Assembly (NCBI GenBank): GCA_000310025.1
Contig: FN649748.1
Span: 2,254,658-2,284,243, forward strand
Length of the DNA stretch: 29,586 bases
Source of the DNA: Ectocarpus siliculosus
Taxonomy: Eukaryota > Sar > Phaeophyceae > Ectocarpales > Ectocarpaceae
Direction of reading: 5' to 3'
Below are positions 4,891 through 28,734 of the stretch, in pieces. A program made the position numbers and the translations under genes. The notes under the pieces were generated by a model. It ran no database searches. It was not told the DNA's origin and saw only the letters and a program-made list of their open reading frames with translations. The first letter of the stretch is position 1, and every line of letters begins with the position of its first letter.

Positions 4891-7800
4891 CTAGCAAACA
4901 GTCCCGCCGCCGCCGCCCGCCGCCACCGCCGCACCGCCCGTCAAGCTCAGCAGGGGTTCGCCCACGACGAACCAGGAGATGACGAGTGCGGCGACGGTCT
5001 CGGCCCTGGAGTGGAAGAGCGCGGCCGTATCGTATACCAGGAGAAGCGCGGCCCCCGCCACCGCCGCGCAGACGGCGGCCGCGGGAAGGACCGACAGGAA
5101 CGGCGACGGCCGTAATGGCGGCGGCGGTTGTGGTGGTGGTGATCTCGATGAGGACGTGGAAGAGGAAGAGGGAGACGATGGAGTAGGTGATGGTTTTCGC
5201 TGGAGGCCGGAGGCGATGGCGGCGGCTTGGCGGGAAAAGTCTCCGTATTCTCGGAGAATGCAGCAGAGCTCGAATACCTGGGAGGGGGTACACACGATGC
5301 GGGGCGATTTCCGATATGTCGGCGGGTGGGTGTGCGCGGGAGGTAAGCAGGTGGGGAGAAGACAAAAAGCAAACGAGAGGCGCACGGAAAACTCGGCTTC
5401 CAGGTAGATCAACAGCAAGCTAAACGACACGCAACCAATGCGGGGCAATTGGAAGTTTGGCAGAGGAGGAACATCGCACATCAATGGACGGTCGAACCGG
5501 ATAGGGTGTGCAGAGAGATAAAAAGAGGCCGGAGGGCGAGTAAGCGGGCGGCGGGGACAAGTAGACATTGTTCTGTTAATGTTTTGCCTGTCGAGAGCAC
5601 CGGGGGGGGTTCCACGCAAACCTTCAATTCTGTTTCGAGCAACACAGGAGCACGCAACCCCGTTGCCGTTATCGAATTATTATCCCAACTTTCGCGTAGA
5701 ATATTTCAAGCTGTGTGATTGGCTCCTGAAACTTCACGTCGGGATTGAAATAGGGGGGTGCCGGGTCGATAACGTGACACTACATGGTGAGTTCCCGACC
5801 CTACACCGCCGTTCTCTAACGGTATCAAAACCGGTCCAAGTCCAAGTCCAATGACCGGTTATTGACGCCCCCTCGCAGCATGTGTCCGATATCACTGAGT
5901 GTGTGTTCCCCACGAGGTGGCGGATGTTATAAACTACCCTCTCCCCCGGGGGTGACTTTTCCCCGCCAAGTACACTCCCGTGCGTACAGAGGCGGATCGA
6001 GGTAGGGTAGACGGCTAGACGACGCGCCAAATCACGATCCTTCAACCTACCGCACGCTCCACATCTCTGCCGACGACAACGGACAACCCGTCGTGAGGAA
6101 ACCAGGGTGAAAATGGCCGCAAGCGGGCATGGGACGAAGGCTTACTGCCATGTCATGCAATACATATACATGTAAAGCAACGCACAACATGCAAAGGTGA
6201 TGGCGACGACGATAAGGACTTGCCTGTATCGCGTAGTACTGGCACACGGCGAGGACCACATGGTCGGCGAAGTCGAAGTGCTCGCTACACTTCCCGCTGC
6301 GCCTGAGGTGCGCGTACCAGCAGTTGCTCGATTCCTCGGACTGAACAAGACCCTGTTGGGGCGCAGCGGAGGAGGAGGGGGGAGGGGATTCGTTCGTGCG
6401 GCCTTTGTCTTAAACCATGGTGATTGCGCATTTATTCCAACTAGGTGCGAAATCGTTCTGCTGCTGGTGTGAGAGAGACGCGGCCATACATGTGGGCGGT
6501 CGTTCACGTTTGTGACGCGATAAGGGGACTGTATGCAAATGGAAGGCGGGCGTCCAACGACGAGATCGATGATGGCGAGGTAAGGACCCCAGGAGGACGA
6601 TAAGTGTGCCGGTACATAAGAGCAAATACTGCGTGGTACGTAACCACATCACACAAGGCTCCCCGTTCAGGAACACTCTTCGAGATTAATTCTCCTCATA
6701 TCGAAGCCGGCGCTGCTGTACCCTATGGTACGGAGTGCTCGGTGTTTGGGTTCGATTTGTTGCGTGTGCTGTGTGCGTGTTTCTTAGCCAAGTCTTCCGC
6801 GCTGCGGTATCTACTCGTCCCGTGGCAGCCCCCCTCCTCAAATGGATGCGCGTGTGTCTTGTCTCTGTTTCAACATATCAAATCCAATGCGTAACGCTCC
6901 CTTTTGTTCACCGCACAGACCACAAAACACAAACACACACACAAACACATTGTGTCGCGCGGTCACCTGGATGTAATTCAAGCCCAAGTACAAGCCCAAG
7001 GTGCGGCCCAGTATGACGGCCACGTACAGCAAGAATCGGTTCCACCGAGCTCGCCTGCACGAAAAGGGAGGTTTCGCACGCAAACCCACACGCACGTTTT
7101 GCGCAGACACAAACACGGGGAACGATCAGCGACACAAGGTTTGCGTATCCATGTCACTAACGCCCTCAGGTGCGTGCTTGCTGGCTGTAGAAGAGCAAGG
7201 CAAGCTTGAGGGCACCCTATAAAAGCAGCTGCCGTCTTCTCAAGGGTGACAACGTTCTCGTGGGACACATACCGAGAGTGCCGGTTTACCGAGTAGGTTG
7301 TCAAACCTTTCACCGGCACGGCTTCGCCACGCGCAAAACGGAGACTCTCAGGTAGCACCATACACCTCACGGCAGTCTCACGCTTACACTAATACGCGGT
7401 GGCGGATACATCCACGCGTGGCATTGCCCGATTTCGCGAGCGAGAAAGAGAGAGGTCACACTACCACGAGAATCACACCCCGCAAAAACCCCCGTCAAGG
7501 TGCCCCTCACTTGTTCGGGGTAGATATCCCGCATCAATCTTCTCAACACCGTGATTCATGGATCCAATGCCGACACCACGCTACTCCACTCATGACACAA
7601 ACTCAACCCTTGACGCCTACGTCTCGCTGAGCAGATAGGGGGAGGCTAGAAGGAAGGACGTCGTAGGCTGTCCAGGTTGGCGCGGGGATATCCCATGGGA
7701 GTGTGGGATACTCTTATTTATGTATACTCCTTCCGCACGCCGGGGTTCCTGGCGGTTTCCCGTGCTTGACTAAATCAAACCACTTACGGCGGTAAAACCC

Positions 7801-14095: not shown

Positions 14096-16671
14096 TTAGA
14101 TGACACGGTTGGCGTTGCGGTTGAGGATGAATCTCGGTCGCCCCATGGATTTCTGGTCCAGGTAGTCACGAATGAGTTCGCGAGGCATGGACACCTCCGC
14201 AGCTTTCGATGGCCTGCCCCGTGCGGGCACCGTGTCGTAGTAGCTCCCACTGATGCTCCCGTCAGGGTGGAAGGTCACGCTCTCGGGAGCAGATACCTTC
14301 CACGCGGACTGAGGGACGGGGGGCCCTGCGACGTCGCAAGAAGTTGTGCAGCCGAACGATCGTGTTCATGACGTGGCCGACGCGGTCTAGTCGGATCGCC
14401 AGCGGCTTCTACAGAATTCCCCACGTCTTCACCTGTCATCGTATTAGGCGGGAACGGCGGCACCTGGTTGGTCGGTACTTCATACCCCTGAACTAATCGC
14501 CGATATGTACCCATTAAAACTTTGGGATAGAACCAGATGGGGGAGGCGAGACGCGCATTTGACACGTCCGGCTATGCCCAGCTATGTAGTACTGCGTGCT
14601 ACGGATCAATGTTGAATCATTTTCGCGTTCCAGTCGAGAACATTGACACTAAAGAGGTGGTTACCGAAATACTACAACATTCTCAACAATAGTCTCTTCG
14701 AAGAGGCACGAGAGAGGGCGGCAAAAAGAGTGGCGTCGGTTCGAGTGCTCACCAGTATGCCGAACGCTTGCTCGATGGAGACCCTGGCCTGCGACTGGTA
14801 AAAGTTGTACGCGTCTTGGCTGAGGGTGAGGGCAGTGCCTGGGTAGGGGACGAGCACTTGGTTCGACGCCGGGTAGGCGGCGTCGCCAACGATGAAGCAG
14901 TCGGGTGGGAGCTTCCTCAGGAGTGCGTCGAAGCCAGAATTCTTGAACGCCGTGCGGTCGTTCTGGATTTCCGGGCAGTTCATCGTCCACGTGATGATCT
15001 CATAGCTGGCGTTGCAGATGCCCTGAGTACAATTGGTCGCCGTGGGTGAAAGCATTGTTGTTGGTGGCCAAAAGGTCTTCAACATTGGGCACGGAACGGC
15101 ATGAGCGAATGTGCTAACTCCGCCCGGGGAGATCTACGTCGTAGGATGCTTGTTTCCAACACTTCCCGGGGAGATCTACGTCGTAGGATGCTTGTTTCCA
15201 ACACTTCCCAGGGGAGATCTACGTCGCAGGATGCTTGTTCCCAACACTTCCATCCTCGAGGTGTCTCTTTGCTGCATGTTGTAACAATGTTCCTTCTATA
15301 TCCTGCTGTTGCCGATGTTGTTGGATACATCATTGTTTTGTGTAAATAGATAAACCGTTGCAACAACACCGCCACAGCATCCGCGTCTCAACTTTCGCCA
15401 CTGCTACTCCTCCTGTGTACGCCCCAGCGAAGAGCTGTTTGCCCCCAACACTTAACGGTCGTGACTGCTGTGTACTCTTGGTTTGTCTACATGGGCTACC
15501 TACGATGAATACGTGTAGTTCTGACACAGCTGAAGATCAGAGAGAAAAACGTCATGGCACGGCAGGAGAGACGACAGTAACACTAACCGCAAATATGACC
15601 GTACGTTCTGGCGCGAGCGGTTCGTGCGGCAACATGGAATGCGCATCTCAGACAGAACAGAAACAGGTACCGCACACGACGCAATAAAACTCAACCCCGG
15701 CAAGGACCAATTTTTCAAAGCTCGCTTTTGATAAAGTATTCGATTGAACAACAGCACAAAGAGTCGAAGCGCCGAAAACGGCGGCGTTGAAGCCGTCTCA
15801 TCGGCAAGTCTCCGAATAAGGATCGTTTCGTGCATGCATCCTCTCCGTCGTGGACTACTGTAAACGAGTTTTGAAAATTGGTCCAGGGGGTGTGTTATCT
15901 TGTGTCGTATCCGGTGCCCTTGTGTGTCCGCGCACGGCTGCTGTATACAGTGTTGTCTACAGCAGTATACATGTATGGGACCACCCCGAACTATGTATAA
16001 CGCACCTGGAAGTTCATGCCAAAAGCTTTCTTGTGTCCAGTGTAGAACGATCCGGGATTGCAGTGCCTCTTCAGGCACGGCTGGATCAACCGCACGAACA
16101 GCCCGTCCATGGCTCCCACGCATCTTCGGATGACGCCGTTCGTGCTTCGCCTCCGGTACAGCTCGGCTTGGGCGTCGGCCTCGTCCCCTTCTGGCCATTT
16201 GCAATCCAACTCCCTGGTCTGGTTGATGGCATCGATTACAAGGTGCACTATGGCATACGCCGTGCTTTTCGCGATGACATTCGAGTCCATGATCTCGAAC
16301 ACACTCCCGCCTGCCAAGAAGCGGAGAGTCATCGCCAGCTGAAACTCCACTGGGATAGCTCCGTTGCGCAGAGCCCCCATCTTTTCGTCCCTTCTAAGCT
16401 TGGGACGTAGGATGTCTGCCAGGGTCATGAAATCGGTGTAATCCATGCTGAAGCGCTTCCTGAACGTGTTGTCTTCGACCATGGGTCGCACAAACGTGTA
16501 GAACGACCTCCGCTCCCGATACACAAAGTCGTCGCGGTGTGCGGGGGCATCGCTGTCGTCGTCCGTCAAAACCATTACGAGCAAAATCTGCAGCAGCATC
16601 TGCATGGGCTTCTTCTTCTGGCCTCTCTTGTAGGAGCTCCTTCGAGCGTGGCTGCGCGGAGGACGCGCCAT
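14096..16671 (-). CDS. PIF/Harbinger transposase (DDE_Tnp_4), one frameshift
   Basis: Minus strand, ATG at 16671. Exons: 16671-16006 (222 codons, donor GTGCGT), 15022-14753 (acceptor after TTGTACTCAG, donor GTGAGC), and 14408-14096 (acceptor after AATTCTGTAG, stop TAA). All junctions are phase 0. Exon 1 holds the helical N-terminal region (MTLADILRPKL; LAMTLRFLAGGSVFEIM) and the first catalytic Asp in CVGAMDGLFVRL, followed by NPGSFYTGHKKAFGMNFQ. Exon 2 has the second Asp in VGDAAYP and the Glu in RVSIEQAFGIL. Exon 3 has VMNTIVRLHNFL, as in Harbinger transposases, then a conserved-looking tail (HPDGSISGSYYDTVPARGRP). The DDE triad is complete. Exon 3 is 313 nt and changes frame at the six-base G run at 14318-14323 (C run on the coding strand), so the copy may be dead or the base miscalled. 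The usual RWG segment after QAFGIL is missing, so a short exon between 14409 and 14752 may have been overlooked. No TIR pair or 3-bp duplication was established. Confidence 0.85.
15123..15249. repeat. Three-copy 42-bp minisatellite in a transposase intron
   Basis: Units at 15123-15164, 15165-15206 and 15207-15249 (42, 42 and 43 bp). The first two are identical; the third differs by an inserted A and two substitutions. Each contains GGGGAGATCTACGTCG and ATGCTTGTT. It lies in the first intron of the Harbinger transposase. Confidence 0.95.
15888..15916. repeat. Solo copy of the ACAAGATAACAC terminal motif
   Basis: GGTGTGTTATCTTGTGTCGT matches the right-hand arm of the elements at 10529-10554 and 28846-28866. 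No inverted partner was seen close by, so this is a fragment of the same short-element family, inside the Harbinger intron. Confidence 0.45.
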
Positions 16672-16862
16672 GGTCGCGTGCGATGTGTGCGGAATGCTGT
16701 GTGTCCAGTGCTGTGGCGGTGGATTGCGTCACCGCGGGACTGTCGTCAAACCAGACTGTTCGGTCCCTTCGTATGTGTGCAAGGGAGAATCGTTGTTGGA
16801 AGAATTCTCGTCCGTACTTTCGTCGATAAGACACACAGGCCATTTTCGTTCGGATTTAGGTA

Positions 16863-18249: not shown

Positions 18250-18258
18250 GTTGCAGAG
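18250..18258. repeat. Left 9-bp target-site duplication of the MULE
   Basis: GTTGCAGAG immediately precedes the terminal GGGCGCGAA of the left TIR and is repeated exactly at 24314-24322 after the right TIR. Nine-base duplications are typical of Mutator-like elements. Confidence 0.95.
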
Positions 18259-18379
18259 GGGCGCGAATATTTGCAATCCATGGATTATAAAAGAGAACCA
18301 CAGTCCAAACATCCGGACGGATCGAAACCCCGGGAAACCGCCCGGAGTGTCCCCGAAGAGGTTCTCCTCTCTCCCTCTC
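18259..18379 (+). repeat. Left TIR of the MULE
   Basis: About 121 bp, with only scattered differences from the reverse complement of 24196-24313, mostly at GCGAA(A)TAT, TATAA/GAAG, CCGGACGG/CCATATGG and the pyrimidine-rich inner edge. It contains TATAAAAG in the inward direction at about 18287, where the right TIR has TATAGAAG. Confidence 0.93.
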
Positions 18380-19292
18380 AAATTCAATATTATCTCGGAG
18401 CCTGGATCTAACGCCCGTTGTCTTCGGAAGCAGAGCTCTCGTCTGCAGCAACAGCCTCAACAGTCCATACTGCCATACTGGCACATATTTCACGCCAAGG
18501 CCACCCTTCGCACCCGGGATGCCCAGGAGACGCTAGGCCTCAGAGGAACAGGAGGACACGACGACACACAACGCCCCGTACTTAGAGGAGTGCTCGTCTC
18601 TCTCTGTGTGTGTGTCTATCCGCGTGTGGTGCTGCTGTTGTTGTGCGTTTCTGCTGCTGCAAGCAATTGTTGCTGTAGATTTTGTGAACTACATACAGCA
18701 GTATTCTTTTTTTGGTAGATATAACCTGCTGCACGGTGCTGCCGTGATGGATGTCAGTCATCATGGGGCCGTCAAAATCTGTAGGCATCGTTTAGTTCGC
18801 ACACCGCAGGCCCGCTCAACAAACTCGAGACGCGGCTCACACGGTTTTCTTCGCAGAGCACACAGGTCGACAAGCACAGATAGACGCAGAAAAAAACAAA
18901 ACAGAACAATCAATATCCAACAGCGATTTGATGATAGACTGACCCCCACCAAAAAAATGAAAGGACCTGGATATGACCCCAACACGGCAAAAAAGGGGGC
19001 GGAAGAAAGAAAAGAAAAGGAAATGGAACAAAAGAAATAAAAACAGGACAGGAACCAGATGGCCCCATCGAACGCTACACCGCAACAACCAAATAGACAT
19101 ACAAACACAAAATCGACAACATCACAGACGGCGATCGGCGCAAAAACGCCGAAGCGAAAAATAAACAACACACCGAGCCTTGACCTGCCGCCGGGGGGGG
19201 ACAAAACATCGTTCAGGCATATGCCCCGGTGACGTCGTAAACCTAGGGCCGCGTACCGCTACTCACGTACCCCAAAGTATGCAACACCGAAA

Positions 19293-22200
19293 CTAGAGTT
19301 GGGACCCCGAAGTCGCGGCTCTCTTGCTACCCCCTCTTGTGTATCTTTCTGCAGCGCCAGGTCGTCTTTTATTACTTGTCCTAGCGGGCAGGCGAACAGT
19401 TCCAGGGTTGGCCATGAAGAGAGCCGCCCCCCGCCCTCCCGTCGTTGTAGTTCCTACCCCGCCTGCTTGCACATTGACCATCGTCAGAAATTGGTCCACG
19501 AGGGCTACGGCGACTGTCGGTGAAAAGCGATCAGACAAAATACTCGCGGCTTGCCCGAGCTTCTTCGTTACGTCGGCGTACAACACTTGTCTATCCTGGT
19601 CCGTGGGCCCCTTCTCCTTCAAGTCCAACAGGACCGTCTGCACCGTCTGGCTGCTCCCAACGAAAGACTTCCATCTCCCGCTGCATCCCCCCACCCCCTC
19701 TCCCTCTCCCTCTCCCGCCGCCCCGTCCACTTCTCTCGCAGCGTGGCGGTTGGATACCACCCACCGAGGGCGGGCGACATCCGGCCAGTCCTGCTGCGGT
19801 GTTCCCCTCGCCTTTTCCGTCAGCCAGTGCTCGTGCAGGAGGCCTACGTGGAATCTGAATCGGGGGCTGTACATCATCGCCGCCCACACATGGCGACAAA
19901 ATAGCCTGAGAGTTTGGAGTGTGCGGCACTGGCAGAGATGGCTACCGTCGGAAAAGAGCAAGACGAGGTAGTCGAAGGCCTTGTCATCACGCTGCTCGTG
20001 AATCCCGAAGACGTAAATGGCGTCGCAAAGCTTGTCCTCGATGTACTCGAACGTGCGCCCCGAAGCTGCCGCGCGTTCTGGTCCATCCACCTCCCCACCA
20101 CCCATCTGGCAAAACGTGATGGCCGCGGTCATCTCTTGCTCCATGAACCGCCGCGGCCAGCCCGCGATGGAGAACTCGCAGGACTCGAGCACACTCTTGA
20201 AAGCGGTCGCTGGTGGAGCCGCCATCCGATTAGGCGGCAGATGGTCGATTGCGTCACGCAGCATGGCGGCATCCTTCTGGGAACAGATGATGCCCGAAAA
20301 GTACTTCGCCACGTCCAAAAGCGAGGAGCGCGAGTTGCACCTATCCCTGATGAGGGCGTTTTGGCCTGTTGTGTGTGCGGCGGACAAACACGCAAGAAGC
20401 GACACACAAACCAAACCGTAGGTTAGTGATTGGTGTCATCAGACATCGTTGAAGTCGCAGTACGCCAAACGACTGAAAGAGAAGCCTATGACTTGACGCA
20501 CCCATCGCCACAGATGTATGTACACGTGAGCCGGACGATCGCAGTGCACCGACCAAGTACATCAATCCCGAACAACAGGGGCCGGACAACAGCCACATGT
20601 TTCGAAGAGGTCGTAAACATTAGCGTCATGTAGGGAGTTGTTTACTGGTCATCCACTGACGGCGTACGATAAATTCGTCCAGAAGCACTCACCAATGGCA
20701 TAGTAAATAGGGGGGCAAGGAAGATAGCCGCCCCCCAACCCCTACAGAACGTAGAAAAACTCCCAAAAACAACGACAACGCTATATGCGCTGTCGTTCTC
20801 GAACAAAACGCTCATGATGGCAGATGACGCATACACGCACCTTCAACTCTTGATGTCGTCCACGAACCCACGGAGAACACCAGGGGCGACACATATTCCG
20901 CCCACCGTGCACGGTCGTCATATACTACTTGCATGTACTTCTCCGCCTTCGGGTACTTTTCGATGAGGGCGTTGAACTTCCGTTCGAACTTCGCCAATGA
21001 CAGCTGCTGACGCACACACCTGAACTCGTCCATGAAAGGCTGCGGAAAACACAAACGACGTGGGCCGGGTGGGTGTTGCGTGAGTTGGGGCCTTTGCGAT
21101 ATGGGCTACCGGTCTGTAACGATTGACTGCCACCAACAACCCCGTACACTTCGTTAGCGCTAAGGCGAGACGAGGAGAGGGTTGAAAAAACTCAGCGACA
21201 TACCATTGGTGCTTACAACCTGCTGCTGCTGCTGCTGCTTTTTCTGTGTGCACTGGACGTCGTGAGGTATGTTTCCGTCGAAGCCGAGGTCGTCTCCGCA
21301 TCACGGTCTACGCAGAGACGCTGGATATCACTCTTCCAAGTAGGCGACACTGATCCATGACAACGCACCAACTCGCACAGGGGATACAAGCGGGAGTGGG
21401 GGAGGGGGGCTAGAGTGGGCAGCGTACGTCGCGCGACCAGGACAATACGAGAGGCCAGACTAACCACGCCAACACACACAGTAGAGCGCACCTTCATGTA
21501 CCCACCAAGGACTTTAGCGAGGGCCTTGATAACGTTCTGGTTGAGGTGCCATAAATTGCGCCTCGCCAGCGCGTCCGGGAACACCTCTCGCACCGCCGCC
21601 GTCATCGCCGCGTCCGCGTCCTGGATGAAGGTATCCGGCTGCTTCCCGCGAGACTCCAACGCACTCTTCAACATCCACAGGAAAGTGTCCGTTGTGGTGT
21701 CGGCCGTTATGCTTTGGCCGACGATCCGCGTCCGATACTCCGAATCGACGACAGCGAGCACACCGAGAGGCATACGGTATCTGTTCTTGACAGCGGTGTC
21801 GTCGTAGAGCGCAACGTGACCGTACCGATTCCAAAGCGCCACCTGCGTATTCGGAGCATGACGTCGAAGGGGATCGAGAGCACTTAATTGTGGGTGTGAC
21901 GTGTGTTGGACGCGTCACAACGCACCCCCACCCTTGCCTACGGCGTGCTTTCGGTCAGACGTCCTACATTTGCGGACGGCGAAGCGGTACGTGCGAGATG
22001 CTAAAATGAAAGCAAACCTTCCGGCTGGGGAATATTCGTATGGGGCACAACGACCGGCGACCTACCTGCTCTCTCGTTTGCCACCAGATGTGCGTCAGGC
22101 GGCCGCTGTCATCCATCTTGATCTCGCACACTCCGCCGTCGGCCGTCGCGGCCATGACCTGAAATTGCAACATGTTAAGCGCCCGGAAACATCGAGGGCA

Positions 22201-22551
22201 TCAGCGCAAAACCACGACGACGGCACGGCACACATTTTTTACCTCCAACATTTCTTGGTTTGGTGTCATGGGGCATATATTCTCCCGGTTGTCACCTGCG
22301 ATCGTATGTGTCTTGTCGCCCGGATACCGCCTTGAGCAAAACCCAACATCCCACACACAAACAAGAGAGGCAACAGTCTCAACGGACACATGGACACACC
22401 TCTTCGTACGCATCGGCAGCATCTCTCGGCTTCTCCGCCCCGTGCACAATGGCAGCTGCGTTCTGCACCGCGCGCTTGTTGATGTCGATGTCGCTGTCCT
22501 CGTGCAACGCCTTCATTGCTTTCGTCACCTCTTTTGGCTTCATCCCATGAC
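19293..22551 (-). CDS. MULE transposase with SWIM zinc finger, 5' exons unresolved
   Basis: Five minus-strand exons join in phase: 22551-22400 (donor GTGTGT), 22158-22066 (acceptor after CAATTTCAG, donor GTAGGT), 21842-21492 (acceptor after ATACGCAG, donor GTGCGC), 21039-20841 (acceptor after TTTTCCGCAG, donor GTGCGT) and 20365-19293 (acceptor after CACAACAG, stop TAG). The second has DSGRLTHIWWQTREQ. The third is the MULE catalytic core: ALYDDTAVKNRYRMPLGV with the first Asp, FIQDADAAMTAAV with the second, and NLWHLNQNV. The fourth ends in GSWTTSRVEG, as MULE proteins do before the GQN segment at the start of the fifth. The fifth exon has a SWIM finger (CQC, nine residues, CRH at about 19935-19887) and a basic tail. 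No stop or frameshift interrupts these exons. The first listed exon begins in phase 1, so at least one upstream exon exists, probably between 22600 and 24180. Confidence 0.9.
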
Positions 22552-22754
22552 CTGCGCCGTATGGGAGAGCCGGGAGCACAAAAATAAGTGGCGTGTCACA
22601 GACAAACAGGGTAACAATGTGGAGGCGACAGCAGTACCACGCTTCAAGGGCCGTTCGTCATGCGGCATCATGACTACCAACCATGACAAACCGTGGGATA
22701 CGACGGGAGCCACTGCAGACCTACTCCAACGAGTTCAATCTTCCTTGCCCCATA

Positions 22755-23640
22755 TTTGATTCACAAGACAAGACAAATGAAACGTTTCGCCGTCCACCGC
22801 TGAGTACACGAAAACAGCGAACCGAACGTGCACGCGTTGAAAGGCACGAGGTGCAGCACAGCAGGGACAATCAATTGGCGTGCTACACCCACGAAAACAA
22901 TGGCAGGGCCTCTACAGGGAGCCTTGATGTGGACCGGGGGAATGCCAGATACCGGTGCTCTTTTCATGGGGCCAAGGGGAACAGCAGCAGCAACATCAAG
23001 TAAAGCACACAAAAAAACATTGTGGGTGTCACGCCGAACGGCACGTGTCAAGCACCAACCCGTCTCGCCTGCGTTTCCGGCGGGGGGCTGGTGGTCAATG
23101 TCTGCTGCTGTTGTTGCTGTACGGGGTGGGCTTGTACAGGGTAGCCCGCAAAACCTCCGGCGGCCCCAGCATCGGGAGCACCCACAGGGGCCGGAGTTCC
23201 CAACGGCAGACCAGTGCGAGGTGAAAGCATGGCCTGCAACCGCACGCGAAACCCACCACGCGGCGGAATGGAAGGACACCATGTCAACGTTTGATCACAA
23301 GACAAGACAAATGAAACGTTTCGCCGTCCACCGCTGAGTACACGAAAACAGCGAACCGTACGTGCACGCGTTGAAAGGCACGAGGTACAGCACAGCAGCG
23401 ACAATCCACTGGCGTGCTACACCCACGGAACAAACATTGCCGGTGTCACGTCGAACCGCACTTGTCAAACATCAACCCGTCTCGCCTGCGTTTCCGGCGG
23501 AGGGCTGGTGGTCAATATCTGCTGCTGTTGTTGCTGTACGGGGTGGGCTTGTACAGGGTAGCCCGCAAAGGCTCCCGCAGCGCCAGCATGACGAGCACCG
23601 TAAGAGGCCGACAGAGCAGCACTGGATGGAAGCATTCCTA
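22755..23640. repeat. Tandem duplication inside the MULE 5' region
   Basis: Copy A (22755 to about 23235) and copy B (23290 to about 23640) share long stretches, starting CACAAGACAAGACAAATGAA. Copy B lacks about 115 bp of copy A (roughly 22890-23005). Both contain a minus-strand open segment encoding FAGYPVQAHPVQQQQQQ followed by LTTSPPPETQARRV. In copy A this segment starts after a good acceptor (GCGGTTGCAG, exon from 23233). The duplicated Gln/Pro-rich stretch may be a transposase N-terminal exon present in two versions. Confidence 0.85.
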
Positions 23641-24186
23641 GCAATGACACTACCGCACGGCAGGCCACGGGTCCCACGACGCGAACATGGAGGGTAGACA
23701 CATGAAGTTAAGGGGTTGGGCAAGTGCGTGCACAATGCCTGCACCTCTACCAGCCCAGCACTGCTGTAGCACCACCATACAGCCGAGCAGCCAGAAGAAA
23801 AGACTCCGGACTATACGGCAAGGACAACAGGCAGGGCCTGGCCTGGCCTGACCACACCAGTGCAGGCACATGATCACCAACGTACGTACGACGGCAACAA
23901 CAGGTACAGAGCAGCATCGACACGTGGGACAGCATGAGGGAGGCTGCAACACAGGAGACAGACCAACACACACATGGCGCTGGTGCGGGTGCGGCCGTTG
24001 CTATTTTATTTCCAAAAAAAACATCACAGAGAGGGTGAGGGTGAGGCACAGACACAGAGGATGCACGGACGCCTGTCGGGACGGGATCTCACCAGTTATC
24101 GTTGTGTGTTGTCTCCTCGTCTTCCCCCAGCGTGCGGGTGCGTGTCGCCGCCTTCAGACGGCTCTCCGCCGCCGTGATTATCGCTG

Positions 24187-24194
24187 CTTTTATA
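24187..24194 (-). promoter_or_regulatory. TATA box for the MULE transposase
   Basis: TATAAAAG on the minus strand (context CCTATAAAAGCAGC) at the inner edge of the right TIR, upstream of the minus-strand transposase gene. MULE TIRs commonly carry the transposase promoter, so this is the best candidate core promoter. The start site is not visible from sequence. Confidence 0.5.
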
Positions 24195-24195
24195 G

Positions 24196-24313
24196 GAGAG
24201 GGAGAAGAACCTCTTCGGGGACACTCCGGGCGGTTTCCCGGGGTTTCGATCCATATGGATGTTTGGACTGTGGTTCTCTTCTATAATCCATGGATTGCAA
24301 ATATTTCGCGCCC
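24196..24313 (-). repeat. Right TIR of the MULE
   Basis: About 118 bp; the reverse complement starts GGGCGCGAAATATTTGC and aligns with 18259-18379. It is the transposase-proximal TIR and is followed directly by the right GTTGCAGAG. Confidence 0.93.
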
Positions 24314-24322
24314 GTTGCAGAG
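24314..24322. repeat. Right 9-bp target-site duplication of the MULE
   Basis: GTTGCAGAG, identical to 18250-18258. Confidence 0.95.
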
Positions 24323-24892
24323 GTCTCGTCTACATTTCAGTGTCACAAGCGGCGGGTCCTCGTGTAGTACGTACTTCCATTTTCCTGCGGAGCCCCCTCT
24401 CTCAGCTGATTGGGCAGCTGCTCAAGCTTCGCATGCGTGTGTCATTTGCTCTCACCTTTCTGCACAACTTCTTCACGACACTTGCTCCGTCCCTGTGGCT
24501 TGCTTCAACCTTCGGAACAACGCTCAACATCCTTTGCTTTTCGAGTTTTCGACAGGAGGTCGCTCCGTGGCCGCACGAACGTGTGACGAGGGTCCCTGAC
24601 ACGTGATATAAGCATACGGCAGGTGTCCGACTTGCTGCCTGCAGCCGCGGGGTCTTTCGATTTTTTCCACGCCTTGCCGTTCAAGAACGGCAGCGCGCAA
24701 GCTTCCCTGCCGATCAGGAGGGGCGGAGGGCACGAGTCTGGTGGTCGGACTACACTGCCGACAGCGGCGTTCTGTGCTGGCCGTCAACCATTAGCACGGG
24801 AAGAAGGGGGCGAAGGAACAAGAGCTTTGCGGGTCGGGTCAGAACGCGCACGCACATCAACCGACATCGACACGGCAAATAGAGGTTAGACT

Positions 24893-26804
24893 ATGAAGTT
24901 TGCCAAGCACCTCGCAAGGGCGATGGACGTCTCCGACCCTGAGTGGCACCCGTTCTGGGTCAACTACAAGCAGCTCAAGAAGGTCTTGAAGCAACCGGCG
25001 GCGGCGGCGGCCTCTAACAACAGCAGCAGCTCCCCCTTAGGAGAATCAAGTTCAGCAGCAGCAGCAGCAGCAGCATTAGCCCCCCCGCGGAGACCGGGCA
25101 TCGCTCCTGAGGAAAGTAAATGGGGCGGCAGCACACCTAATGACGATAATGGTCGCTGCCTGGAGCAGCAGCAGAAGAGGAGTAAAACTTCCGCAGTTGC
25201 CGCTCCCATCTTGCCCGCCGCTGCTAGCCTCCTGCGCGCCCAGCCTTGGGACGCAGCGGCGGCCGCGCCGCCAGCATCAACAACGGGGACGTCAACCATG
25301 GCTGCTGCTGCTGCTACGGAGAATGGCGCAAGTCATCGCGGTGGTGCGGAGGGGGTTGCTGCATCGGTGAATACAACAAGGGAGGAATTAGAGCCGGCGG
25401 CGGCGGGGGTGGCGTTGACTGCTGCTGTCCTCTCCTGCAATCCCCGCGCAGCAGCAGCAACAGGTGACCGCGCCGTCAACGGAGAAAGCAACAGCACCAG
25501 CAGCGGCAGCGGCACGCCTCCGCGTGAGGACAAGAAACTTGCCTGCGGCGTCAGGGATAGTTGTCGCGATGGACTAGAAACGGCGTCCGGTGTTCGTGAG
25601 ACTGCCTCCTCCTCCACCGCCGTTGTCCTTGCATGCTGCGGAAATTCGTCTTCGTCTTGCGCTGCATCAGCAGCAGCTGCCGCCGCCAACGCCAGTGGCG
25701 CAGCAGCAGCCAGCCCGGCGGCGGCGCTTGGGGATGATAGCACAGCAGCAGGGGCTGCTGCTACCCAACAGGACGCACAGCAGGGGCTGCTGCTGCAGCG
25801 GCGGCGGCAATGCGAGTGCCCGTTCTTCAGCGCTCTCCTCAGGGAGGTAGACAAGTGCCGCATTTTTTTCTTGGAGAACGAGGGCGAACTGAAGGTGAGA
25901 TGCAGCCAAGATTTATTAAGGAAGAATTAAAAGCACCCACAGAAAGACTACCATTCGAGACACACCCACAGCAGTCGAACGGGATGTGGTGGAGTCTTTT
26001 CAGTGGAGATTTATGTTATTTACATTTGTAGCAAGATATTGCTTCTGCTGCGTGCGTGCAGCCAGTAGTAGTCATGCGTGCATGCATACATGGCGTAAGC
26101 TCAGTCCCCGCCGCCCCACGTCGCAAGTGCCCGGAGTACGGTTAAAATACGTCTATGCCTGTGTCTACAGCAGTAGGTCGTCGTCGCATGTGATGTGTGT
26201 GTGTCTTTATTATTAGCGTCGACCGCGCTAACCGGCTCACCAATGAAAAGACGTCAGTCTTGGTCCGTGTGTGTGTTTGTGCACTTTCCTCGCTGCTTTC
26301 TGCTCCGCCGTGAGAGAGCGTGTTGCAAATGGGAGTGTTTTGGCCGGCCTCCCAGCTACATAGTTCGTCGTGGGGTCGATTTTGCGCGGCGGTTCGGCGG
26401 TTCGGCGGTTCGGCGGGGCTCTTTGCTCTTTGCCTCTTGAACGGGCCATGCAAAGGTTGTTGCTGGTCACTGGCTTTCTCGTTTGAAAACTTGTTGCTAC
26501 CAGGATATGGCACATATGACGCAAAAGCAGCAGTGGCACATCTTCCCCTTTGTTTGTTTGTGTGCACTCTCTGTGCGCAGGAATTCCGATTGTTTGGTTC
26601 CCCTGCTGCCTTGATTGATTCTGCTTCTGCTGCTCGAACCCATGCTCATGTGTGCCCCTACCGACGACACCTATGCATGCCTCTACCTTTGTGCCCCGTC
26701 AAAAGATACGGACCAAGCGCTTGCAGCTGGCGCTGGATCACCTGAAGAGGCCGGACCTTAGCCGCCTCAGCAGCGTCAAGGGCGCGCACATGAAGCTCAT
26801 GCAG
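24893..26804 (+). CDS. SPX-domain protein, 3' incomplete
   Basis: ATG at 24893; exon 1 is 24893-25894 (334 codons, donor GTGAGA) and exon 2 is 26706-26804 (acceptor after CCCGTCAAAAG, donor GTATGT), both phase 0. It opens with a classic SPX N-terminus (MKFAKHLARAMDVSDPEWH, then YKQLKKVLK), whose lysines bind inositol polyphosphates in this family. About 265 residues of Ala/Ser/Gln/Gly-rich sequence follow. SPX homology resumes at FFSALLREVDKCRIFFLENE and continues in exon 2 (RTKRLQLALDHLKRPDLSRL, AHMKLMQ). The final SPX helices and any C-terminal domain (EXS, VTC, MFS or RING, as in other SPX proteins) are not in the recognised sequence, so the class cannot be named. SPX proteins sense phosphate status. 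A TATA-like GATATAAG lies at about 24605. The MULE ends 580 bp upstream. Confidence 0.88.
25895..26705 (+). other. Intron 1 of the SPX gene
   Basis: An 811-nt intron, GTGAGA to AAAAG. It contains a short direct repeat of CGGTTCGG at about 26390-26412 and no recognised gene or element. Confidence 0.75.
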
Positions 26805-28078: not shown

Positions 28079-28667
28079 GTCAATGGTCTAACGACTACGG
28101 CATGCACGACTATGAGTACCCCCCCCCCCCTCATTAATCAGGGATGAAGAAGTACTTGGACGGCCCCATGGACTATGCGAAAAAGCTGAAATTGCAATTT
28201 CGAGTAGGCGATCTGGACTTGCCAGAACGGAGGAAGAGGTATACCAGCCGTAGGAGAGAGGAAGAGGAGGATAGACACACATGTCCATGTGGCAAATCGG
28301 AGGAGAGTAGACCCCACATAGTTGGGGAGTGTGAGTTGTACAGGAAGGAAAGAGAGGATCTCGAGGAGGAAATGAGACAGAGAGGGTGTGACATGGACAA
28401 GTTTGGTAAATTAGACAACAGCGAAAAAACGATCGCGATAATTGGGGATAGATGGTGGGCACAAGAGGCCCTAGAGGACGGGGATAAGATGTGCAAGAAA
28501 TTTTTATGGAGTTTGTGGCAGAAACGTAAAGAGCTCCCAAATGTTGGTGGTGTCTCTAGTAGGTGTAGGAAAGGTGCTCCGTCTCGAAAGGGACGCGTGG
28601 TCAATGGTCAAATGACTAATGACTACGGCAAGCAACAAATGAGTACGCCCCCCCCCCTCATTAATCA
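28079..28667. repeat. Direct repeats flanking a reverse-transcriptase fragment
   Basis: 28079-28140 and 28599-28667 are similar direct repeats. Both read GGTCAATGGTC, a TAAYGACTACGGCA segment, GAGTAC, a run of C, then TCATTAATCA. The second copy is in frame with the LINE-like open frame and supplies most of its C-terminal tail. The arrangement could be tandem insertion of one element's 3' end, or terminal direct repeats. Confidence 0.6.
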
Positions 28668-28734
28668 CACCCAAAACACACCCGTGCGTGTTCGGACGTG
28701 CTATCACACCCCCTGGTTTATCACACCCTCTTAA
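28144..28734 (+). pseudogene. LINE-type reverse transcriptase C-terminal fragment
   Basis: A 196-codon open frame from ATG at 28144. It starts inside what looks like the C-terminal region of a non-LTR retrotransposon polyprotein. LKLQFRVGDLDLPERRKRYT is followed by a zinc-knuckle-like CPCGKSEESRPHIVGECELY (Cys-x-Cys, then His and Cys), then a charged helical segment with WWAQEAL and FLWSLW. This CxC...H....C arrangement after the RT domain is typical of LINE ORF2 ends. The RT core itself (the YxDD region) is absent, as in a 5'-truncated copy. The last residues come from the direct repeat at 28599-28667 and are probably not native. Confidence 0.55.

Follow-up and report, generated by a model that had tools for sequence, protein, structure and literature searches.

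Mutator-like elements (MULEs) combine a DDE transposase with terminal inverted repeats (TIRs), which are typically but not universally long, and with a target-site duplication of 8-11 bp, and they often encode a zinc finger, as set out in the survey text drawn on here (PMC6446971). In brown algae, whose transposon biology is called underexplored in the same source that catalogues the transposable elements of Ectocarpus sp. 7 (Ec32), Table 1 of that catalogue enters a single DNA/MuDR family with 56 copies, 42 of them intact, which occupies 0.13% of 200.2 Mb (PMC12477816). Here we describe an element of this kind in a window of 29,586 nucleotides, by which we mean the whole stretch analysed, from Ectocarpus siliculosus (contig FN649748.1, positions 2,254,658 to 2,284,243). 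We have very little doubt that it is a complete, potentially autonomous MULE of the Mutator superfamily with a SWIM-type motif and a ZSWIM-like core, and that its family was amplified recently in this brown alga. It carries a MULE-domain DDE transposase, a 9-bp duplication and long TIRs, the finger being present as a motif only, and is ordinary in kind but unusually clean in condition.

Among the elements described in the survey, the MULE-Diatoms (group 37) resemble the window element in their stramenopile hosts, in TIRs of 123-124 bp, in a SWIM finger (in the window element a SWIM-type motif) and in a single open reading frame (ORF), a likeness drawn from TIR length, SWIM and host group and not from a tree; they differ in that their table entry reads 'No TSD and not indicated', whereas the window element has a duplication of 9 bp (PMC6446971). 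The main text of that survey contains 0 occurrences of Ectocarpus. Long TIRs, a 9-bp duplication and a DDE transposase are likewise shared with maize MuDR/Mutator and other plant MULEs, whose SWIM finger has its counterpart in the SWIM-type motif of the window element (table rows of PMC6446971 in part). Maize MuDR has a second gene, mudrB; no such gene was recognised in the window element, whose other scanned ORFs gave nothing above cut-off in Pfam. Like the Ec32 DNA/MuDR family, the family described here is a low-copy family of a brown alga, with at least 36 copies of the transposase core and 203,808 bases, or 0.108%, of a 189.5-Mb genome. The two are perhaps the same family, the comparison with the tabulated entry being one of coverage and copy number (PMC12477816).

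The boundaries of the element can be given to the base (Table 1). The TIRs align with identity in 113 of 117 columns and with two gaps, one of 1 base and one of 4 bases, and their local alignment scores 198. The maximum in 2000 null alignments is 30, reached among 1000 shuffles, while 1000 stretches taken from the rest of the window gave at most 27. The first-pass annotation, made from the letters of the window, had proposed a complete element with TIRs of about 120 bp and an exact 9-bp target duplication, and had named beforehand a TIR alignment no better than chance as one of the results that would count against it. The TIRs and the duplication are as described, and with both tips in place completeness is borne out as well. 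Its range of 18250-24322 placed the tips correctly but took in both duplications, which lie outside the element proper (18259-24313); nor are the two tips the same, since the right one, GGGCGCGAAATATTT, is 1 base longer than the left, an extra base absent from the 24 other aligned copies.

A search of the genome (189.5 Mb in 492 contigs; all match counts are lower bounds) with the TIR, which had likewise been proposed, found further copies. The left end (18259-18420) has at least 41 matches, of which, among the matches listed, 26 are identical over all 162 bases, and the right end has at least 42; in both searches the best 40 of 73 candidates were scored. Of the copies of the transposase core, 26 are identical over 331 bp. 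When 3 mismatches or fewer are allowed, the TIR tip occurs at least 67 times, as against 0 for a reversed control pattern. Besides the window copy, 40 loci were fetched for comparison. In 25 of these, as in the window, both tips are present 5.5-6.9 kb apart, two of them (L008 and L013) carrying deletions and a third (L014) 1953 N; one further locus is a miniature, and the remaining 14 comprise single ends and loci that are truncated, N-gapped or diverged. An exact 9-bp duplication flanks 23 of the 27 copies with both tips, the window copy included, whereas mismatched pairings of left and right flanks gave an exact 9-bp match in 0 of 702 cases. At E 1e-3 no similarity was seen among the 100-bp flanks of these 27 copies. 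That chance inverted repeats and flanking 9-mers merely happen to surround a pseudogene is practically inconceivable given these tip counts, duplications and TIR score, and that reading was rejected because other copies carry duplications of their own. The sequence made by joining the two flanks of the window copy at one GTTGCAGAG has 2 matches in the genome, which are the two sides of the insertion itself; because these flanks are single copy, neither an empty nor a duplicated site turned up for them.

Several loci deserve mention in their own right. L040 (G000:C5:1994279-1994474), the sole miniature among the fetched copies, measures 196 bp; it retains both tips and is flanked by an exact 9-bp duplication, CACTTGGAG. 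In L032 (G000:C16:7266000-7272192) the element is broken at its own position 5719 and joined to another left end from position 21, in the same orientation. Across the 23 duplications there is a weak tendency to G/C at both outer positions (18/23 each), from which we claim no target preference.

Table 1. Features of the element, in window coordinates
Feature	Position	Strand	Basis or remarks
Left target-site duplication	18250..18258	.	GTTGCAGAG
Left TIR, 121 bp	18259..18379	+	TIR alignment; genome matches to left end
MULE with minus-strand transposase gene	18259..24313	-	6055 bp; tips, copies, alignment
Transposase exon E	19293..20365	-	Exon chain; SWIM-type motif, stop codon
SWIM-type motif C410-x-C412-x9-C422-x-H424	19890..19934	-	Motif; weak Pfam match
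Transposase exon D	20841..21039	-	Exon chain; likely catalytic E265 (20842-20844)
Transposase exon C, MULE/RNaseH-like core	21492..21842	-	Pfam; D97 (21798-21800), D157 (21618-21620)
Transposase exon B	22066..22158	-	Exon chain
Transposase exon A	22400..22551	-	GT-AG sites, open frame; in-frame ATG at 22541-22543
Tandem unit of about 534 bp, two unequal copies (families D1, D2)	22761..23610	.	Upstream of exon A
Right TIR, 118 bp	24196..24313	-	TIR alignment; genome matches to right end
Right target-site duplication	24314..24322	.	GTTGCAGAG

The transposase gene is a chain of five exons with GT donors and AG acceptors that encodes 622 residues up to the stop, the first codon being partial. On the spliced translation PF10551 (MULE) scores 48.3 bits (cut-off 27.6), PF21056 (ZSWIM RNaseH-like) 41.5 bits (cut-off 27.2) and PF00872 (Transposase_mut) 26.4 bits (cut-off 21), the last over residues 112-272 and thus across the splice between exons C and D. 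D97, D157 and E265, spaced D-60-D-108-E, are likely the catalytic residues, an assignment which we take from the motif. In comparisons with the older copies L025, L037 and L039 the ratio of nonsynonymous to synonymous differences per site (pN/pS) is 0.22, 0.31 and 0.22 (L034, whose exon E is truncated, is not part of the comparison), and these low values support the reading frame and its having been under selection in the past. The first-pass annotation had seen uninterrupted transposase exons, catalytic Asp motifs and a SWIM finger, and had thought that the copy could be autonomous. The open five-exon frame and both likely catalytic Asp residues are found as it placed them, with E265 in addition; the SWIM-type motif CxCx(9)CxH is also where it was placed, but as a Pfam domain it falls below cut-off. 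Because its exons are open, its splice sites in place and its D-D-E triad present, and because pN/pS is low, the window copy could indeed be autonomous. In the comparison of the window with L025, 19 of 1341 aligned intron bases differ (1.4%) as against 23 of 431 synonymous sites; that the introns diverge less than the synonymous sites could reflect gene conversion or a mosaic origin. The tandem region upstream of exon A is a possible promoter or first-exon region of the gene; L013 lacks 534 bp of it and L025 is arranged differently there.

But might the gene be cargo rather than the transposase of the element? The ZSWIM1/3 proteins, which are products of host genes, share the RNaseH-like domain of PF21056; unlike them, the window transposase sits between TIRs and in many copies. 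MULEs do tend to take up fragments of host genes, at least as described in the survey text (PMC6446971), and the ZSWIM model scores above its cut-off, so that a non-autonomous element with a captured or domesticated MULE-like gene has to be weighed. It is nevertheless very improbable. All copies with both tips that reach at least 5.5 kb and have no N gap share this one gene (L025 in diverged form), the subfamily A copies with both tips span 5.5-6.1 kb apart from the 196-bp L040, and among tip pairs matched by eye none encloses other cargo; moreover, DDE residues and a SWIM-type motif are present. Pack-MULEs and other non-autonomous MULEs, for their part, have no transposase of their own, and the element has one.

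Several observations weigh against a complete and potentially autonomous MULE. In the assembly the complete exon chain is unbroken in only 7 of the 32 copies examined (25 copies with both tips and 7 truncated ones, the older L025, L034, L037 and L039 being left out). Four of the 27 copies with both tips, L007, L009, L016 and L022, lack an exact flanking 9-bp duplication; read by eye, the 9-mer is shifted by one C in L016 and by six bases in L022, and no clear duplication is seen in L009. Although the CxCx(9)CxH motif is present, PF04434 (SWIM) reaches just 14.6 bits against a cut-off of 19.6 (E 0.024), and on the spliced protein SWIM has no match at E 0.01. In the C/DxxH motif of such transposases the first position would here be N (NLWH). 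Finally, candidates for a first exon with an ATG were sought upstream of exon A and had no convincing donor site; such an exon may lie there. Ten further ORFs searched for an N-terminal DNA-binding domain gave nothing in Pfam above cut-off, and a 452-residue stretch compared with solved structures had no match at E 1 or better. L007 (G000:C6:223013-229146), again read by eye, is a rearranged locus, in which a 77-base TIR fragment (region L007:101-190) stands 4 bases ahead of a full element and the right flank opens with 8 bases that repeat the left flank in inverted form, an arrangement that suggests a complex or aborted insertion event.

The copies are young, as the first-pass annotation had supposed. 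In an alignment of 25 of them (the window copy, L005-L024 and L026-L029, with the diverged L025 left out), the mean pairwise substitution difference is 0.141% and the maximum 0.423%. Singletons account for 60 of the 65 substitution columns that are gap-free in every copy, and for 58 of 62 over the 5251 gap-free columns of a second alignment, so that the substitution pattern is star-like. Since the copies differ so little and most substitution columns are singletons, the family appears to have spread in a recent burst. In the window copy itself one substitution is private (two are in the first alignment), as are four one-base insertions, all of them outside the exons. By their linked variants at 19674, 24253 and 24255 the copies fall into two groups (L012 being mixed and one of the sites being unread in L014), so that two source lineages probably stand behind the family. 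The singleton rate is 5.2e-4 per base (77 in 148,475), and the Ectocarpus mutation rate is given in the pedigree study as 4.07e-10 per site per generation, with an interval of 4.93e-11 to 1.47e-9 (PMC10254074). At this rate the family would be about 1.3 million generations old (0.35 to 10.5 million), a rough estimate that is likely too old because sequence errors inflate the singleton count.

Is such a family still moving, or has a genuine MULE burst stopped, leaving a dead young family with most of its copies frameshifted? The latter finds support in the exon chain, which is broken in all 7 truncated copies and, where both tips are present, in 18 of 25 copies of subfamily A, although these scores are at least partly due to N gaps in L014, L030 and L036 and to a cut in exon E in L035. 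On the other hand, seven copies are intact, all of them with both tips and the window copy among them. The small indels over the element in the 25 aligned copies comprise 95 insertions and only 3 deletions, 85 of the 98 events being distinct, which fits unpolished long-read error better than mutation; from the Ectocarpus pedigree study no short indels are reported (PMC10254074). We infer that the excess arises in near-identical repeats which are too uniform to be polished. Because small insertions so outnumber deletions, many of the frameshifts in the copies are probably sequence errors. Exons carry 26 of the 98 events and make up 1868 of the 6055 bases, and are thus not clearly spared. On balance we consider a dead family unlikely, if far from negligible. 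The view that the MULE family is still moving in the brown alga we hold tentatively, at somewhat short of an even chance; of the copies with both tips almost all have their full length, or close to it, and are not miniature, with 26 of 5.5-6.9 kb as against one of 196 bp.

If the element works as its parts suggest, the minus-strand gene would be transcribed and give rise to a DD(E) transposase, which would bind the TIRs of about 120 bp and excise the element. The element would then be joined to a 9-base staggered cut in the target, whose repair would give the 9-bp duplications.

Downstream of the element the ORF 24890-25930 on the plus strand encodes an SPX-domain protein (PF03105, 46.4 bits, cut-off 27.8). 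About 570 bases separate the right duplication from the first ATG of this ORF, and an effect of the insertion on the promoter of the gene is possible. The ORFs 15991-16728 (minus strand) and 28138-28734 (plus strand) look like a transposase of the Harbinger type and the tail of a retroelement, respectively, a resemblance for which Pfam gave nothing at E 0.01. Elsewhere, and in contrast to the one MuDR family in the tabulated catalogue (PMC12477816), the searched genome also holds other, distant MULE-like sequences. L048 (G000:C9:1780500-1786000) and L049 (G000:C24:1847500-1853000) show 25-42% amino acid identity (tblastn rows, E up to 0.005), the SWIM region being among the matched parts of L048 (E 0.004) and having a weak match in L049 (E 0.14). 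For L045-L047 tblastn returned no row, and several equal-scoring PF10551 fragments occur elsewhere in the genome. In a simple search for inverted repeats in these five loci, L047 and L049 each gave a single weak pair and the other three gave none. As to a viral carrier, relatives of exon C were sought in viral_contigs, where tblastn confirmed none of 16 pattern matches in a search able to detect only close relatives. EsV-1-7 repeats, which are described as having proliferated in brown algae and as otherwise mostly found in giant viruses (PMC12477816), number at least 150 in the genome, all over the cut-off (best 150 of 880 candidates scored), with 0 of 14 control genomes containing them, a result that makes a brown alga the most likely host.

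Taken together, the window presents a young, multicopy and apparently intact MULE family, bounded to the base, in the brown-alga lineage. Counts of intact transposons taken from this assembly are affected by what we see here, as frameshifts in its near-identical repeats are probably often not real. If the family does still move, brown algae would have in it a candidate for a natural insertional mutagen.

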